Shown here piece by piece: positions 48,558-56,980 of a stretch of DNA of 64,000 bases. The notes beneath the pieces were generated by a model. That model saw nothing but the letters and a program-made list of their open reading frames with translations. It ran no database searches and was not told the origin of the DNA. Position numbers and translations under genes: made by a program. The stretch covers positions 62,001 to 126,000 of the forward strand of contig JANWZD010000004.1 of the NCBI GenBank assembly GCA_025054935.1, written 5' to 3'. The first letter of the stretch is position 1. Every line of letters begins with the position of its first letter. The DNA comes from Dehalococcoidia bacterium. GTDB taxonomy: Bacteria > Chloroflexota > Dehalococcoidia > SpSt-223.

Positions 48558-48585
48558 CTGACCTTCCGAACAGGTGCGCTATAAT
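48558..48585 (+). promoter_or_regulatory. Promoter of the trp operon
   Basis: CTGACC (48558-48563), 16 bases, then perfect TATAAT (48580-48585). Transcription would start near 48592, giving a leader of ~360 bases. Confidence 0.65.
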
Positions 48586-48639
48586 CGGCATGCGGCACTC
48601 TGGCCGGCAGGAAGAATGCTGCCGGCTAGTGCGCTCAGG

Positions 48640-48915
48640 TCCATACTGGAACGACGTCGAACGAGACGAGTACGCTCCCAGCGAAGCTCAGAGAGCCGCG
48701 GCAGGTGTGAGGCGGCGCTGGCGCAGGAGAGGAATGGACTCGGGAGTCGCGGTCCGAACCCCGAACGGGCAGTAGGCGCCGCCGGCTGGCCTCCGTTAGC
48801 AGGCACCGGGCATCGCCTTTCGGGCCGTGCTCCGAACGAGGGTCCGCCAGCAGCGGGCTGAAGCAGGGTGGCACCACGGGAAACGCCTCTCGTCCCTCAC
48901 GGACGCGAGGCGTTT
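48640..48915 (+). ncRNA. T-box riboswitch, Trp specifier
   Basis: Landmarks in order: AGTA of the GA motif (48669-48672), AGAGAG (48690-48695) and GGTGTGA (48704-48710) of the distal stem I loop, a specifier context GAATGGA with TGG at 48735-48737, and the T-box itself AGGGTGGCACCACGG (48865-48879), which pairs with the uncharged tRNA acceptor end. It overlaps function with the terminator at 48881-48915. Uncharged tRNA-Trp should stabilise the antiterminator and switch on the operon. The 5' boundary is approximate. Confidence 0.88.
48881..48915 (+). terminator. T-box-controlled terminator hairpin
   Basis: AAACGCCTC-T-CGTCC pairs with GGACG-C-GAGGCGTTT around a 5-base loop: 14 bp with one mismatch. 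The U-run is short (UUU), so termination may be weak or aided. Confidence 0.75.
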
Positions 48916-48952
48916 GCGCATTAACCCCAAAACCGCGGAAAGGAGCCGGTGC

Positions 48953-50314
48953 GTGGAACAGACGAAATATCTCCTCAGCGAATCCGAGATGCCGCGGCAG
49001 TGGTACAACATTGTGGCTGACCTGCCGGTGCCCCCGCCTCCGGTGCTGCATCCCGGGACGGGCCAGCCGATTGGCCCGGCCGACCTCGCTCCGCTCTTCC
49101 CGATGGCGCTCATCCTCCAAGAGGTGAGCACCGAGCGCTTTATCCCCATCCCCGACGAGGTGCTCGCTGTCTACCGCCTCTGGCGGCCGACCCCGCTCTA
49201 TCGCGCCCATGCTCTCGAGCGCGCGCTCGGGACGCCGGCGAAGATTTTCTACAAGTACGAGGGGGTCTCCCCGACCGGTTCCCATAAGCCGAACACGGCC
49301 GTCGCGCAGGTCTATTACAACAAGCAAGAAGGGGTGAAGCGCATCGCCACCGAGACTGGCGCCGGCCAGTGGGGCAGCGCGCTCGCGTTCGCCTGCAGCC
49401 TCTTTGGGCTTGAGGCGAAGGTCTACATGGTGAAGGCGAGCTACTACCAGAAGCCGTACCGCCGCTCGCTGATGGAAGTGTGGGGCGGCTCGGTCACGCC
49501 CAGCCCCAGTACCGAGACGAACGCCGGTCGGGCGGTCCTCGCCAAGGACCCCGACTCCCCCGGCAGCCTCGGCATCGCGATCTCCGAAGCGGTCGAAGAT
49601 GCCGCCAGCCGTGAGGATACGAAGTACTCGCTTGGGAGCGTCCTCAACCATGTCCTAATGCATCAGACGATCATCGGCGAGGAAGCCCTCAAGCAGCTGG
49701 CGCTCGCCGACGCCTATCCCGATGTCGTGATCGGCTGCGTTGGGGGCGGCAGCAACTTCGCCGGACTGGCGTTCCCCTTTGTGCGCGAGAAACTGACCGC
49801 CGGCAAGCCGACCCGCATCGTTGCCGTCGAGCCTGCCGCCGCGCCGTCGCTCACTCGCGGCAGGTACACCTACGACTTCGGCGATACGGTCGGCATGACC
49901 CCCCTCATCAAGATGCACACGCTCGGCCATCAGTTTATCCCCGACCCGATCCACGCCGGCGGGCTGCGCTACCACGGGATGGCGCCGCTCGTTTCGCTCC
50001 TCTATGAGCACGGCCTCATCGAGGCGCGGGCCTATCCGCAGAGGACCTGCTTCGAGGCGGCCGTCCAGTTTGCCCGGACAGAAGGCATCGTGCCCGCTCC
50101 CGAGTCGTCTCACGCCATCCGCGCCGCGATCGATGAGGCGCTGGCGGCCAAGGAGGCGGGCGAGCGGCGCACGATCCTGTTCAACCTGAGCGGCCACGGC
50201 CACTTCGACCTCGCCGCCTACGATGCCTATCTGGCAGGCAAGCTCGAAGATTTCGACTATCCGCCGGAGCGCGTCGCCGCAGCGTTGGCGACCCTCCCCA
50301 AGGTGCCGGCATGA
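48953..50314 (+). CDS. trpB2: Tryptophan synthase beta-like protein TrpB2
   Basis: A protein of 453 residues from GTG 48953. It is the longer TrpB2 type: N-terminal extension ([19 protein letters not shown]), PLP Lys in [12 protein letters not shown], phosphate-binding [10 protein letters not shown], and [15 protein letters not shown]. TrpB2 makes Trp from indole and Ser, usually without TrpA, and may salvage indole. It is the first gene after the T-box, followed by trpS with an ATGA overlap. A standard TrpB closes the operon. Confidence 0.93.
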
Positions 50315-51306
50315 AGCGCATTCTCACAGGCGATCGCCCGACCGGCAAAGGCCATCTTGGCCACTATGTCGGCTCGTGGGAGAACCGCGTCAAGCTCCAA
50401 GACGAGTACGAATGCTTCTTCCTGATCGCCGACCTCCACACCTTGACGACGGCGGTAGACCGGACCGCGAACATTGCCGAGAACGTGCGCGACCTCGTTC
50501 TCGACTGGCTGGCGGTCGGCATCGACCCCGCGAAGTCGACGATCTACCTTCAGTCGCTTATTCCTGAGGTGACGGAGCTGTTCTGGATCTTCTCCTGCCT
50601 CGTAACGGTGCCGCGAGCGCAGCGGATCCCCACGCTCAAGGATGTGATGCGCGACTTGCATATCGAAGAGCCGTCGGTTGGGCTGCTCTCCTATCCGATC
50701 CTGCAGGCGGCCGACGTGCTGATGGTGCGGGCCGAGCTTGTGCCGGTGGGAAAGGACCAAGAGTCGCACATCGAGCTCCTGCGCGAGATCGCGCGCCGCT
50801 TCAATCGGCTTTACGGGCCGGTCTTTCCGGAAGCGCAGGCGCTCACGGGGCGCGTACCGACCCTCGTCGGAACCGACGGCCAAGCGAAGATGAGCAAATC
50901 GCTCAACAACGCGATTTTCCTCTCTGACCCGCCCGACGTCGTCGAACAGAAAGTGCGCGGCATGTACACCGATCCGAAGCGGCTGCGGGCGACCGACCCC
51001 GGCACGGTCGAAGGCAACCCGGTCTTCATCTATCACAACGTTTTCAACGACAACGTCGAGGAGGTGCGCGATCTCGAGGAGCGCTACCGGACAGGCCGGG
51101 TGGGCGATGTCGAGGTGAAGCAGAAGCTGGCGGCAGCGCTCAACCGCTTTCTCGCCCCGATCCGTGAGCGGCGGGCGCAGTTCGAGGCGAAGCCGGGGCT
51201 TGTCGATGAGATCATCCTCGCTGGGACGGCGCGGGCGCGCGCCGAGGCGCAAGAGACCTTGCGGCGAGCGAAGGAGGCGATGGGCCTGCCGTACGTGGGC
51301 GTGTGA
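50311..51306 (+). CDS. trpS: Tryptophanyl-tRNA synthetase
   Basis: A protein of 331 residues, class I synthetase. HIGH-like [16 protein letters not shown] as AKMSKS, and the Trp/AIDQ-type pocket regions typical of bacterial TrpRS (here [10 protein letters not shown]). It charges tRNA-Trp, the very tRNA read by the upstream T-box. ATGA overlap with trpB2; overlaps trpE. Confidence 0.95.
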
Positions 51307-52739
51307 TGTACGTTCCGAGCCTCGCGCAATTTCGTGATCTCGCCGCGCGCGGCAATCGCGTGCCGGTCTATCGCGAGATCGTCGCGGATCTTGAGACGCC
51401 AGTCTCAGCCTATCTCAAGATCGCGCGTGGCGACTACGCCTTTCTCCTCGAGTCGGTCGAGGGAGGAGAGCGGTTGGCGCGCTACAGCTTCATCGGCGCG
51501 GAGCCGTACCTCGTAGTGCGAGCCGATGGCCGAACCGACCCGCTGCTCGCCATCGAGGAGGAGCTGGCGCGCGTTCATCCCGTGCCGGTGCCGGGATTGC
51601 CGCGCTTTCATGGCGGCGCGGTCGGCTACCTCTCCTACGATGCAGTCCGCCATTTCGAACGGCTGCCCACCCCGGCTGCCGACCCGCTCGGCGTGCCGGA
51701 AGCGGTGTTCATGTTCACCGACACCCTCCTCGTTTTTGACCATCTTCGGCACCGGATCAAGGTGCTCTCCCACGCTCGGGTCAACGGCAACCTTGACCGC
51801 GCCTATGCTGAAGCGGTCGACCGGATCGAGGCCCTAGTCGAACGGCTGAATGGGGAGCTGCCGCGCCGTCAGAGCGGCGGACATCTGCCAAGGCGCGAGG
51901 AAGTCTGCTCCAACCTCTCGCCCGACCGCTACCTCGCGATGGTCGAGCGGGGCAAGGAGTATATCGCTGCCGGCGACATTATCCAGGTGGTGCTCGCGCA
52001 GCGCCTGTCGCGGCGGACGGCGGCGCATCCCTTTTCGGTCTACCGGGCGCTGCGCGCGATCAATCCCTCGCCGTATATGTATTTCCTCCATCTCGCTGAG
52101 TGCGACATCGTCGGCGCCTCGCCGGAGATGCTGGTGCGCGTCGAAGATGGCATCGTCGAGACCCATCCGATCGCGGGCACCCGGCCGCGCGGCCGGACCG
52201 AGGAGGAAGACGCGGCGCTCGAGGCCGAGCTGCGCGCCGACGAGAAGGAGCGCGCTGAACACATCATGCTGCTCGATCTCGGCCGGAACGATATCGGGCG
52301 GGTTGCCCTGCCGGGCAGCGTGCGGGTTACCCAACTGATGGATGTTGAGCGCTACTCGCACGTCATGCACCTCGTTTCCCACGTTGCGGGGCGGCTGCGT
52401 CCTGGGCTGACCGCCTTCGATGCACTGCGCGCCTGCTTTCCGGCGGGCACAGTCTCAGGCGCGCCGAAGATCCGGGCGATGGAGATCATTGCCGAGCTGG
52501 AGCCAGACCGCCGCGGCCCGTATGCCGGCGCGGTCGGCTACATCAGCTTCGGCGGCAACCTCGACACGGCTATCACCATCCGAACGATGGTGATGAAGGA
52601 CGGCGTGGCGACGGTTCAAGCCGGCGGCGGCATCGTCGCCGACAGTGTTCCGGAACTGGAATACCAGGAAAGCATCAACAAGGCGACGGCGGTGCTGCGC
52701 GCGATCGAAGTAGCCGAAGACCCGGAGAGCGGGCTATGA
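51306..52739 (+). CDS. trpE: Anthranilate synthase component I
   Basis: A protein of 477 residues from ATG 51306; a GTG at 51303 is directly in front. Converts chorismate and ammonia to anthranilate with TrpG. FLLESVEGGERLARYSFIG carries the Trp feedback site. Chorismate-binding half: LHLAECDIVGASPEMLVR, GTRPRGRTEEED, LDLGRNDIGRVA, FPAGTVSGAPKIRAM. Its start overlaps the trpS stop. Confidence 0.96.
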   Translation: MYVPSLAQFRDLAARGNRVPVYREIVADLETPVSAYLKIARGDYAFLLESVEGGERLARYSFIGAEPYLVVRADGRTDPLLAIEEELARVHPVPVPGLPRFHGGAVGYLSYDAVRHFERLPTPAADPLGVPEAVFMFTDTLLVFDHLRHRIKVLSHARVNGNLDRAYAEAVDRIEALVERLNGELPRRQSGGHLPRREEVCSNLSPDRYLAMVERGKEYIAAGDIIQVVLAQRLSRRTAAHPFSVYRALRAINPSPYMYFLHLAECDIVGASPEMLVRVEDGIVETHPIAGTRPRGRTEEEDAALEAELRADEKERAEHIMLLDLGRNDIGRVALPGSVRVTQLMDVERYSHVMHLVSHVAGRLRPGLTAFDALRACFPAGTVSGAPKIRAMEIIAELEPDRRGPYAGAVGYISFGGNLDTAITIRTMVMKDGVATVQAGGGIVADSVPELEYQESINKATAVLRAIEVAEDPESGL

Positions 52740-52748
52740 GGGGCACCG

Positions 52749-53336
52749 ATGATCCTGCTGCTTGACAACTACGACTCCTTTACGTGGAACCTTTATCAAT
52801 ATGTGGCCGAGCTCGGGGCAGAGGTGGAGGTAGTGCGCAACGATCAGGTCACGGTGGAGGACGTTCGAGCGCGGCGGCCGGAGCGGATCATCGTCTCGCC
52901 AGGCCCGTGCACGCCGAGAGAGGCGGGGGTCTCCGTCGAACTGATCCGCCGCCTCGGGCCGGAGATCCCGGTGCTTGGCGTCTGCCTCGGCCACCAATGC
53001 ATCGGCGAAGCGTTTGGGGGGCGCGTCGTGCGGGCGCCGGAGCTGATGCACGGCAAGACGTCGGCGATCTACCACCGCGGGAAAGGCGTCTTCGCCGGCC
53101 TGCCAAACCCCTTCGAGGCGATCCGCTATCACTCTCTGATGGTGGCGCCTGAAGACCTCCCCGACGAACTCGAGGTGACCGCTTGGACTGCGTCCGGCAT
53201 TATCATGGGGCTGCGGCACCGGCGCTATCCGATCGAGGGGGTCCAGTTTCATCCGGAGTCGATCATGACGGCGGTGGGGAAAGACCTGCTGCGGAATTTC
53301 CTTTCGCTGCCGGCGCCGGCGGAGGTGGCGCCATGA
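52749..53336 (+). CDS. trpG: Anthranilate synthase component II (glutamine amidotransferase)
   Basis: A protein of 195 residues. Class I amidotransferase: [28 protein letters not shown], nucleophile Cys in GVCLGHQCI, and His/Glu in [11 protein letters not shown]. Supplies ammonia from glutamine to TrpE. Nine bases after trpE; overlaps trpD by ATGA. Confidence 0.96.
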
Positions 53337-54343
53337 TCGTCGAAGCGCTCGGCCTGCTGGTTGAAGGCCGCTCGCTGCGCCGCGAGCAAGCCGCTGCCGC
53401 AATGGAGGAGCTGATGAGCGGCCAAGCGTCGCCGGCCCAAGCCGCCGCGTTTCTCGTCGCCCTCCGCATGAAAGGTGAGACGGTCGAGGAGATCGCCGGC
53501 ATGGCATCGGTGATGCGCGAGAAAGCAGCGCCGGTGCGTGTCACCGGCGCCGTCATCGACACGTGCGGGACGGGCGGTGACGGCCACGGCACGCTGAACA
53601 TCTCGACCGCCGCCGCGTTCGTTGCCGCCGGGGCGGGACTGAAGGTCGCCAAGCACGGCAACCGAGGGATGACGAGCAAATCGGGGTCGGCGGATGTGCT
53701 CGAGGCGCTCGGCTACCGGGTCGACCTCGAGCCGGAAGCGGTCGCCCGCTCGATCGAGACGGCAGGCTTCGGCTTCATGTTCGCGCAGCGCTATCACCCG
53801 GCGATGAGGCATGTCGCCCCGGTACGCCGCGAGATCGCCGTGCGGACAGTGTTCAACCTCCTTGGTCCGCTCACCAACCCGGCGCGGCCGGTGGCGCAGG
53901 TGATCGGTGTGCCCAGCCCGGCGGTTGCCGAGAAGATAGCCGCCGCGCTCCGCTTGCTCGGCGTCCAGCGCGGCATGGTCGTCGCCGGGCCGGACGGGCT
54001 CGACGAGATCGGGCTGCACGGCCCAACCGAAGCGTTCCTGCTCGGTCCGGAGGGGATTGAACGCCGGACGATCGAGCCGGCGATGGTCGGGCTCTCTGAG
54101 GCGCCGCTCGCCGCGGTCGCGGGGGGCACGCCCCAAGAGAACGCCGAGATGATCCGCGACATCTTCGCCGGTATGGGTGGTCCGCGCCGGGATATCGTTC
54201 TCCTCAATGCCGGCGCGGCACTCTTCGTCGGCGGGCTGGCACCGACCTGGGAAGAAGGGGTTGCCTATGCCGCCGAAGTGGTCCGCGCCGGACGGGCGCG
54301 CGAGGCGCTCGAGCGCGCTGTTGCCGTGAGCCAAGCAGCGTGA
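53333..54343 (+). CDS. trpD: Anthranilate phosphoribosyltransferase
   Basis: A protein of 336 residues from ATG 53333. PRPP site [38 protein letters not shown] and [14 protein letters not shown]. Transfers phosphoribose to anthranilate. GTGA overlap with trpC. Confidence 0.96.
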
Positions 54344-55149
54344 GCGAGTTTCTCAGCCGCATTGTTGCCGACCGCCGCGCCGACCTCGCAGAGGCGATGA
54401 GGCGCCTGCCGCTCGAAGCGCTGCGCGCGCGCTGCGCGGCGCTGCCGCCGGCGCTCGATTTTGCGGCACCGTTTCGCCGGCCTGGCGTCCAATTGATTGC
54501 GGAGATCAAGCGCACCTCGCCCGCCAAAGGCCGCCTCAATGCCGCGCCAGACCCTGTTGCCCTCGCTCGCGCTTATGCCGAGGGCGGGGCGGCGGCGATC
54601 TCGGTCCTGACCGAGCCGCGCCATTTCCACGGCTCGCTCGACGACCTCGCGGCCGTCCGGACGGCCTTGCCGGCGATGCCGCTGCTGCGCAAGGACTTTC
54701 TGCTGGACCCCTACCAAGTGTGGGAGGGTCGCGCCGCCGGCGCCGATGCCGTGCTGGTCATCGTCGCAATCGTCGACGACGCGCTGCTGTGCTCGCTGCT
54801 CGAGACGTCACGCGCGGCCGGCGTCGCGGCGCTCGTCGAGGTCAACACGCCGGACGAGGTGGCGCGCGCGGTTGCGGCGGGGGCCGCGATCATCGGCATC
54901 AACAACCGCAACCTGCGCACGTTCGAGGTCGATCTCCGGACGACCGAACGTCTGCGCCCGCTGATCCCGCCCGACCGGATCGTGCTGTCGCTCAGCGCTA
55001 TCGCCACGGAGGAGGATGTCCGCCGCCTGATCGCGTGGGGGGTGGATGGAATGCTCGTTGGAGAAACGCTGATGCGCTCGGGCGACCCGCGCCGGACGGC
55101 CGCCAAGCTGACCGCTTGGGGGCAGGCCGGCGTGACGGCGGTGTCATGA
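54340..55149 (+). CDS. trpC: Indole-3-glycerol phosphate synthase, altered catalytic loop
   Basis: A protein of 269 residues from GTG 54340. Ring closure of CdRP to indole glycerol phosphate. Conserved sites: IAEIKRTSPAKG (Glu and Lys), LRKDFLLDPYQ (general acid Lys), ALVEVNTPDE (general base Glu) and IGINNRNLRTFEVD. Odd: the near-invariant ESG after strand 7 reads LSA (Leu218, Ser219, Ala220), so the Glu is missing. ATGA overlap with trpF. Otherwise normal length and fold. Confidence 0.93.
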   Translation: MSEFLSRIVADRRADLAEAMRRLPLEALRARCAALPPALDFAAPFRRPGVQLIAEIKRTSPAKGRLNAAPDPVALARAYAEGGAAAISVLTEPRHFHGSLDDLAAVRTALPAMPLLRKDFLLDPYQVWEGRAAGADAVLVIVAIVDDALLCSLLETSRAAGVAALVEVNTPDEVARAVAAGAAIIGINNRNLRTFEVDLRTTERLRPLIPPDRIVLSLSAIATEEDVRRLIAWGVDGMLVGETLMRSGDPRRTAAKLTAWGQAGVTAVS

Positions 55150-55781
55150 GCGTCGCGGTCAAGATCTGCGGCCTGCGCGACCCGGCCGCAGTCGAAGCGG
55201 CGGTTGAAGCGGGCGCCGAGTTCATCGGGTTTGTCTTCGCGCCGAGCCCGCGCCGTGTCGCTCCTGAGGAAGCGGCCGCGCTCCGCCGGCGGGTCCCCCG
55301 GGGAGGGCCGCAGATTGTCGGTGTCTTCGTCAACGAGGCGCCGGCGACTGTGCGCGCGATCGCCGATACGGTCGGACTGGACATCGTGCAGCTCTGCGGC
55401 GCGGAGTCGCCGCAGGCGGAGTGGGGTCGTCCAGTCATTCGGGCAATCCGGCCGGCGGGGCGCATCCCTTGGCGCGCTCTCGCGCCATGGGTGGCTGGCG
55501 GGGCGCGGCTGCTGGTCGACTCTTTCAAGCCGGGGACGTTCGGCGGGTCGGGCGAGCTCGGCGATTGGGGGCTTGCGGCGCGGATTGCGCGTCGCTGGCC
55601 GATCCTGCTCGCCGGCGGGCTGCGCCCGGACAATGTTGCCGCCGCGATCGCCGCAGTCCGTCCTTGGGGCGTCGATGTCTCGAGCGGCGTCGAAACGGCT
55701 GGCCGAAAAGACCCTGCGAAGATCCGCGCTTTCGTCGACCAGGCGCGAGCTGCTTTCCCGAAAGAAGGAGAACGCCGATGA
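55146..55781 (+). CDS. trpF: Phosphoribosylanthranilate isomerase
   Basis: A protein of 211 residues from ATG 55146. Catalytic Cys in [37 protein letters not shown], and Asp/phosphate loop in [11 protein letters not shown] and VDVSSGVET. Amadori rearrangement of PRA. ATGA overlaps at both ends. Confidence 0.95.
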
Positions 55782-56980
55782 CAAGCGTGCTTTCCCGGCC
55801 GGACTCCCTCGGCCGGTTCGGTCCCTTCGGCGGACGCTTCGTCCCTGAGACGCTGATGCCGGCGCTCGCCGAGCTCGAATACGCCTTCATCGAGGCGCGT
55901 GCTGACCCAGGCTTCCAGTCAGAGCTGGACCGGCTGCTGCGCGAGTACGTTGGCCGGCCGACGCCCCTCACCTTCGCCGAGCGGCTGACCGCGCATGCGG
56001 GCGGGGCGAAGATCTTCCTGAAGCGGGAAGACCTCGCGCACACCGGCGCTCACAAGATCAACAACGCTCTCGGTCAAGCGCTGCTCGCCAAGCGGATCGG
56101 CAAGCGGCGCGTCATCGCTGAGACCGGCGCCGGCCAGCATGGCGTCGCGACCGCGACTGTCTGCGCGCGGCTTGGCCTCGAATGCGCTGTCTACATGGGC
56201 GAAGAAGACATCCGCCGCCAATCGCTGAATGTCTTCCGGATGCGCCTGCTCGGTGCGGAGGTGATCCCGGTCAGCAGCGGCAGCCGGACGCTGAAGGATG
56301 CGATCAACGAGGCAATCCGCGACTGGGTTGCCAATGTGCGGACGACCCACTACCTGATCGGCAGCGCTGTCGGGCCGCACCCCTATCCGTGGATCGTCCG
56401 CGAATACCAATCGGTGATCGGCCGCGAGGCGCGGGCCGCCATCCTTGAGTTGACCGGCAAGCTGCCGGCGGCGGTAATCGCCTGCGTCGGCGGCGGGTCG
56501 AACGCGATCGGCATGTTCTACCCCTTCGCCGAGGACGCAGGGGTCCGGCTGATCGGCGTTGAGGCGGCCGGCGCGGGCCTAGAGACCGGCAAACATGCTG
56601 CAACCCTCGTTGCCGGCGAAGTCGGCGTTCTCCACGGGGCGCGGAGCTATGTCCTCCAAGACGAATGGGGCCAAGTGCGGGAGACGCACAGCATCTCGGC
56701 CGGCCTCGACTATCCGGGCGTCGGCCCTGAGCATGCTTTCTTCCGCGAGATCGGGCGCGCTGAATACCGTGCCGCGACGGACGCAGAGGCGCTTGAGGGC
56801 TTCCAGCTGCTCTGCCGCACTGAAGGGATCATCCCCGCGCTCGAGCCGGCGCACGCCGTGCTGACGGCGGTTGAGGTGGCGCGGTCGCTGCCGGCCGACG
56901 AATCGGTCATCCTCAACCTGAGCGGGCGGGGCGACAAGGATATGCAGACCGTCGCCGCGGCGCTCGGGATCGTGCTCTAA
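55778..56980 (+). CDS. trpB: Tryptophan synthase beta subunit
   Basis: A protein of 400 residues. TrpB1 type: [22 protein letters not shown] Lys in [38 protein letters not shown], and GRGDKDMQT. It should need TrpA, but no trpA follows; the next gene faces the other way. Second trpB of the operon. Confidence 0.96.

Follow-up and report, generated by a model that had tools for sequence, protein, structure and literature searches.

According to those parts of PMC2494555 that deal with them, Trp T-boxes were found in 2008 upstream of trpE and of a trpB-like gene in two Dehalococcoides genomes; a Trp T-box before a trpB-like gene is thus already published for Dehalococcoides. T-box leaders of class I (RF00230; the B. 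subtilis type) consist of a Stem I with both T-loops, a specifier loop, Stem II, an F-box and a T-box bulge, and depend on competition between an antiterminator and a terminator. In TBDB, as far as its entry format is set out in PMC7778990, class I entries are trimmed to a penta-U tract. The parts of PMC7583486 that treat Stem I state that most translational T-boxes have a shorter Stem I without the T-loop motif. For the translational ileS T-boxes of the Actinobacteria, the relevant part of PMC1262725 describes a hairpin that contains the Shine-Dalgarno (SD) box.

Here we describe a Trp T-box in a 64,000-nucleotide stretch of a Dehalococcoidia genome (assembly GCA_025054935.1, contig JANWZD010000004.1, positions 62,001 to 126,000 of the forward strand), which we call the window. 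The element has all the class I parts listed above, including the antiterminator/terminator competition, but its U-tract consists of three U in place of the penta-U of TBDB. It resembles the Dehalococcoides elements of PMC2494555 in class, specificity and trpB-like first gene, and differs from them in that a single T-box serves trpB2, trpS and the trp genes together; this comparison covers specificity and gene context. With the ileS elements of PMC1262725 it shares a GC-rich host and a hairpin that no good U-run follows, but their hairpin sequesters the Shine-Dalgarno box and the window hairpin does not.

A complete Trp T-box leader precedes the trp operon

The genes downstream of the leader, all on the + strand like the features described below, are arranged in the order trpB2-trpS-trpE-trpG-trpD-trpC-trpF-trpB and overlap or are separated by short gaps. 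The first gene, trpB2 (48953-50314; TIGR01415, 666 bits; NF009057, 757 bits), encodes a TrpB-like PLP enzyme and starts with GTG at 48953; the nearest named record for this protein is from Dehalococcoidia bacterium KatS3mg060 (93% protein identity). It is followed by trpS, encoding tryptophan--tRNA ligase (50311-51306; TIGR00233, 313 bits), trpE (51306-52739; TIGR00564, 575 bits), trpG (52749-53336; TIGR00566, 247 bits), trpD (53330-54343; TIGR01245, 411 bits), trpC (54340-55149; NF001377, 277 bits), trpF (55146-55781; NF002298, 178 bits, below the model cut-off of 215) and trpB (55775-56980; TIGR00263, 627 bits). The operon (48953-56980) opens with trpB2 and trpS, and a second trpB, of the ordinary type, closes it. 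Visual inspection of the open reading frames up to 64000 showed no trpA.

A sigma-70-like promoter, CTGACC-16 nt-TATAAT, is located at 48558-48585 (10 of 12 matches; 0.0 expected in shuffled sequences), and the nearest relative, L035, has TTGACG and TATAGT at its own T-box when inspected by eye. The position of the promoter implies a leader of about 320 nt up to the end of the terminator hairpin. An additional strong hairpin (48595-48634; 16-nt arms, 81% complementary; z -3.3) separates the promoter from the T-box and occupies the extreme 5′ end of the transcript. It is missing from the two related species in the alignment; a second copy was sought in the genome and none was found, nor was a repeat origin.

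The RF00230 covariance model matched 48648-48900 over its full length (model positions 1-219) with 69.7 bits and an E-value of 3.9e-15 in a scan of 501 bases. The gathering score of the family is 93, so a default Rfam scan omits the element; close relatives in an equivalent gene context reach 80-85 bits, likewise below 93. The low score affects only the automatic label; the remaining T-box features (specifier, bulge and antiterminator) are all present. An earlier reading of the sequence alone had called this a Trp T-box with a TGG specifier at 48735, proposed the RF00230 search, and named a score below threshold or a specifier other than Trp as grounds for abandoning the claim. The full-length match, with UGG at 48735-48737 as the specifier, upholds it, and the shortfall in score is a formal one. 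The Trp T-box is therefore confirmed, and its leader is complete.

The RF00230 alignment placed an AGUA at 48669-48672, on the 5′ side of the specifier loop, which we take to be the S-turn motif of Stem I. It also placed the UGG specifier codon, a Stem II region with a GAAC...AGUA S-turn motif (48756-48776) and the F-box CCGUUAG of the IIA/B pseudoknot (48793-48799); the T-box sequence, AGGGUGGCACC, occupies 48865-48875. Following the definitions in the Stem I part of PMC7583486, the first T-loop of the elbow-binding motif of distal Stem I is AGAGA at 48690-48694 in the alignment, and the second (UGxRA) is UGUGA at 48706-48710, recognised in the sequence. Stem I is long and holds both interdigitated T-loops (AGAGA and UGxRA), as in class I leaders. 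The UGG specifier is invariant in four aligned rows, which represent three species because two rows come from the same record.

The same genome encodes a tRNA-Trp with anticodon CCA (locus L196; pattern search and ARAGORN), discriminator G and a 3′ end reading ...GCCA; among 45 tRNA matches in the genome, part of them identified, it is the one tRNA-Trp(CCA) found, and a second is possible. The UGGC of the T-box bulge (48869-48872) is complementary to its GCCA end, as expected of a UGGN bulge, and the UGG specifier agrees with the regulated trpB2-trpS-trp operon.

Antiterminator and terminator are mutually exclusive

The antiterminator (48865-48897) is formed by helix A1 (AGGG/CCCU), the bulge UGGCACC and helix A2, with a predicted energy of -8.8 kcal/mol. 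The terminator hairpin (48881-48915) is an inverted repeat with 15-nt arms at 48881-48895 and 48901-48915 and 5 nt between them; it has 14 pairs and one mismatch and a predicted energy of -22.8 kcal/mol. This pattern occurs once in the window and in none of 100 shuffles. The strand CGUCCCU (48891-48897) is common to the 3′ side of the antiterminator and the 5′ arm of the terminator, and the two structures are therefore mutually exclusive: the antiterminator (-8.8 kcal/mol) precludes the downstream hairpin (-22.8 kcal/mol).

The last three pairs of the terminator stem are A-U, and the degenerate U-tract (48913-48922) reads UUU followed by GCGCAUU, so that the 14-bp stem ending in only three U had been described correctly. 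No terminator-like site with at least five T in 8 nt was found here, the class I penta-U being represented by three U, and the NusG pause motif TTNTTT (named in PMC8060035) is absent.

We consider it reasonably probable that this element controls the trp operon as a transcriptional (class I) T-box for tRNA-Trp, with a terminator that has decayed to a suboptimal form and is probably factor-assisted or leaky. At the level of sequence, the aptamer, the UGG specifier, the UGGC bulge fitting tRNA-Trp and the strand shared by antiterminator and terminator all support it. Uncharged tRNA-Trp would stabilise the antiterminator and allow RNA polymerase to enter trpB2-trpS-trpEGDCFB; with charged tRNA-Trp this stabilisation would fail, and the hairpin would halt transcription around 48916-48924. 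As no more than three U come after the hairpin, termination is probably suboptimal: it would need pausing help of the NusA or NusG type or else would leak, in which case basal expression would be high and the induction ratio modest. Genes for NusA and Rho are present in the genome (Rho, 613.8 bits). For mycobacteria, the passages of PMC12288462 on these points describe NusG as an aid to termination where the poly-U tail is suboptimal, and the dispensability of the U-tract as disputed.

The U-tail of the window is rare among Dehalococcoidia T-boxes

U-tails were compared across 41 Dehalococcoidia genomes, each tail being scored by the count of T in its T-richest 8-nt stretch past the terminator loop. 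All matches but the three weakest rows were fetched, giving 99 loci. Nine of these were set aside because no T-box core could be recognised in them, which left 90 modules, at least one of which (L164) probably has the wrong core. One module had three T, seven had four, 12 had five, 26 had six, 42 had seven and two had eight. The single module with three T is that of the window, whose tail is therefore the U-poorest of the 90 Dehalococcoidia modules measured.

A second sample comprised 85 loci from new genomes among the matches listed (the best-scoring ones and those towards the bottom), of which seven were dropped. Here one module had one T, one had three, three had four, three had five, 21 had six, 48 had seven and one had eight. 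The minimum of one T (L286) is an artefact, its own sequence reading GGGGCUUUUUGUU. A tail as poor as that of the window is thus rare but not unique, and in both samples the majority of T-boxes in this bacterial class retain a U-run. The modules surveyed are not independent by descent, and the rows for L253 and L281 each represent the leading module of a tandem element.

Two associations suggested by the first sample were rejected. Poor tails went with short distances from hairpin to start codon among its 87 usable modules (Spearman 0.34, p 0.0014; Mann-Whitney p 0.008; p 0.003 with an alternative tail measure), but the link disappeared in 76 further usable modules (rho 0.02, p 0.88; Mann-Whitney p 0.61). 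Poor tails also seemed enriched among the trpB2 T-boxes of the first sample (p 0.04), but this was dropped as the count had included L029, a match lying upstream, and L023 and L027, which precede ordinary trpB at 33% identity. Among 13 true trpB2 T-boxes, identified by eye, five have at most five T, and three of those five belong to one genus.

The genome of the window contains four T-boxes at E <1e-10, and one further match, with 19.9 bits and E 0.04, is probably due to chance. The other three (L115, L116 and L117), followed by genes that we take from the starts of their reading frames to be ilvH-like, thrS-like and ilvB-like, respectively, end in at least five consecutive U. Such UUUUU+ tails fit U-dependent termination in this organism.

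In 464 kb of the same genome, 173 of 1479 hairpins were followed by three T in 8 nt, against 191 of 1478 in a control counting three A. At least five T followed 20 of 1479 hairpins, against 8 of 1478 in the A control. A survey of gene ends with naive ORF calls did not discriminate: at least five T were found at 2 of 50 hairpins at convergent gene ends (84 ends examined) and at 1 of 52 hairpins at divergent control sites (110 examined). By the 464-kb counts, U-rich terminators are sparse in this genome, and a tail of three U is in itself statistically unremarkable. Two points count against the preferred reading of a suboptimal class I terminator: none of the other 89 modules has so poor a U-tract, and the tail looks like one due to chance, hairpins with three T being no commoner than those with three A.

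The Shine-Dalgarno sequence lies outside the switched helices

The SD sequence, GGAAAGGAG, is located at 48937-48945, 21 nt past the hairpin, and no switched helix includes it; the earlier placement of a ribosome site (48938) outside the stem was accurate. Its predicted unpaired probability is similar whether folding is constrained to the terminator or to the antiterminator, and class II sequestration of the SD is thus not seen. We considered a translational, class II-like T-box in which the switch governs ribosome access to trpB2. The short U-run would suit such an element, as would an SD merely 21 nt past the hairpin, and positions 48800-48809 of the leader are 90% complementary to 48946-48955, which include the start codon. 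However, this complementarity involves the linker rather than the switched helices and was not seen by eye in two sister species. The link between tail and distance was also lost between samples (p 0.008 in the first, p 0.61 in the second). A further argument against this explanation is Stem I itself, which is long and has both T-loops, features mostly absent from translational T-boxes in the account of Stem I given in PMC7583486. Translational control is disfavoured by the position of the SD, its state-independent pairing and the type of Stem I, and we regard it as very unlikely.

The sequence-only reading had called the mechanism unclear, which was fair, but the hint of translational action that it included is not supported by these results. 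The remark that T-boxes of GC-rich bacteria often act on translation has its basis in ileS of Actinobacteria; there the hairpin contains the SD, and here it does not.

Conserved hairpins and interrupted or missing U-runs in related leaders

The T-box was compared with those of two sister species, G001 and G002. The T-box regions of G002 and KatS3mg060 are identical where aligned, and these were counted as one species. All three species of this genus retain the hairpin; the tail is variable, reading UUUGCGCAUU in the window, UUCGUUGUUAAU in G002 and UCUUUGAUUCU in G001. It is interrupted in all three, and those of G001 and G002 still have five T in 8 nt. Outside the genus, T-boxes with a UGG specifier or before trpB2 mostly have U-rich tails (seven of 8 in L131, L147, L022 and L019). 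The U-run was likely interrupted within the genus, and most strongly in the window, a history read from the tails rather than from a tree.

These interruptions, worst in the window, together with a stem mismatch in the window and G002 at a position that is paired in G001, could also indicate that the whole element is decaying, with a non-functional terminator and a constitutive operon. However, aptamer, specifier, T-box and antiterminator are nearly invariant among the three species, which fits continued selection on tRNA sensing, and we think general decay highly improbable.

In another Dehalococcoidia family, f34, the Trp/trpB2 T-boxes L140, L264 and L270 are complete, have UGG specifiers and score 93.2-95.6 bits. 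Their strong hairpins are followed by AAUAGUAUC, GCAAUUACC and AAUUGGUUAU, respectively, with no U-run in any of the three sampled. U-less hairpins thus recur in a second family. The hairpin might then stall RNA polymerase by itself, with release by Rho or by some other U-independent step, and the U-run would not be needed. The presence of a Rho gene (613.8 bits) and the small number of classical U-rich hairpins in the window genome (20 of 1479; A control, 8 of 1478) are compatible with such a step. Against it stand the UUUUU retained by the other T-boxes of that genome and the five T in 8 nt of G001 and G002, and we judge it unlikely. A broader form of the proposal, which we put forward as tentative and rather doubtful, is that in several Dehalococcoidia lineages the trpB2 Trp T-box may have become a hairpin-only platform that has lost its U-tract, where charged tRNA-Trp would act through a Rho- or pause-dependent off-switch. 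On this view, loss of the U-tract would be complete in f34 (three of three sampled) and near-complete in the window.

Other T-boxes in these genomes showed unusual arrangements. In L253 and L281 (f34), tandem modules follow one aptamer, the first hairpin being without a U-run and the second having UUUUU. In the window genome, a Leu-type T-box with a CUC specifier before the ilvH-like gene (L115:101-430, L197:615-940; G000:C3, about 106314-106640) combines a single Stem I with two complete T-box/antiterminator/terminator modules placed one after the other behind it, each with its own U-run; the two sister species (L122 and L125) share this layout. In sister-species T-boxes L119 (G001) and L128 (G002), preceding a gene that is presumably valS-like, the tail is U-poor in G001 (UGUUUGCG) and reads UUUUCGU in G002, with the SD immediately after the hairpin. 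'Partially tandem' T-boxes, with their action described as unknown, are mentioned in the part of PMC7583486 that lists such arrangements.

Discussion

In our preferred reading, a class I Trp T-box with a suboptimal terminator, the putative function of the hairpin is argued from its position within the T-box switch and from its conserved stem; these features, and not the tail, speak for it. In the open-licence literature, no title or abstract was found on T-box terminators lacking a U-run, which is weak evidence of their absence from the record. Databases of transcriptional T-boxes assume a penta-U tail, and elements that lack a recognisable terminator and score below the gathering threshold may therefore be missed or miscalled translational. 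The recurrence of U-less hairpins in another family is the part of these findings most worth experiment. If such hairpins truly terminate, the trp leaders of the Dehalococcoidia would provide natural pairs of leaders, one having the U and one lacking them, for studying the requirements of intrinsic terminators in a GC-rich, little-studied phylum.
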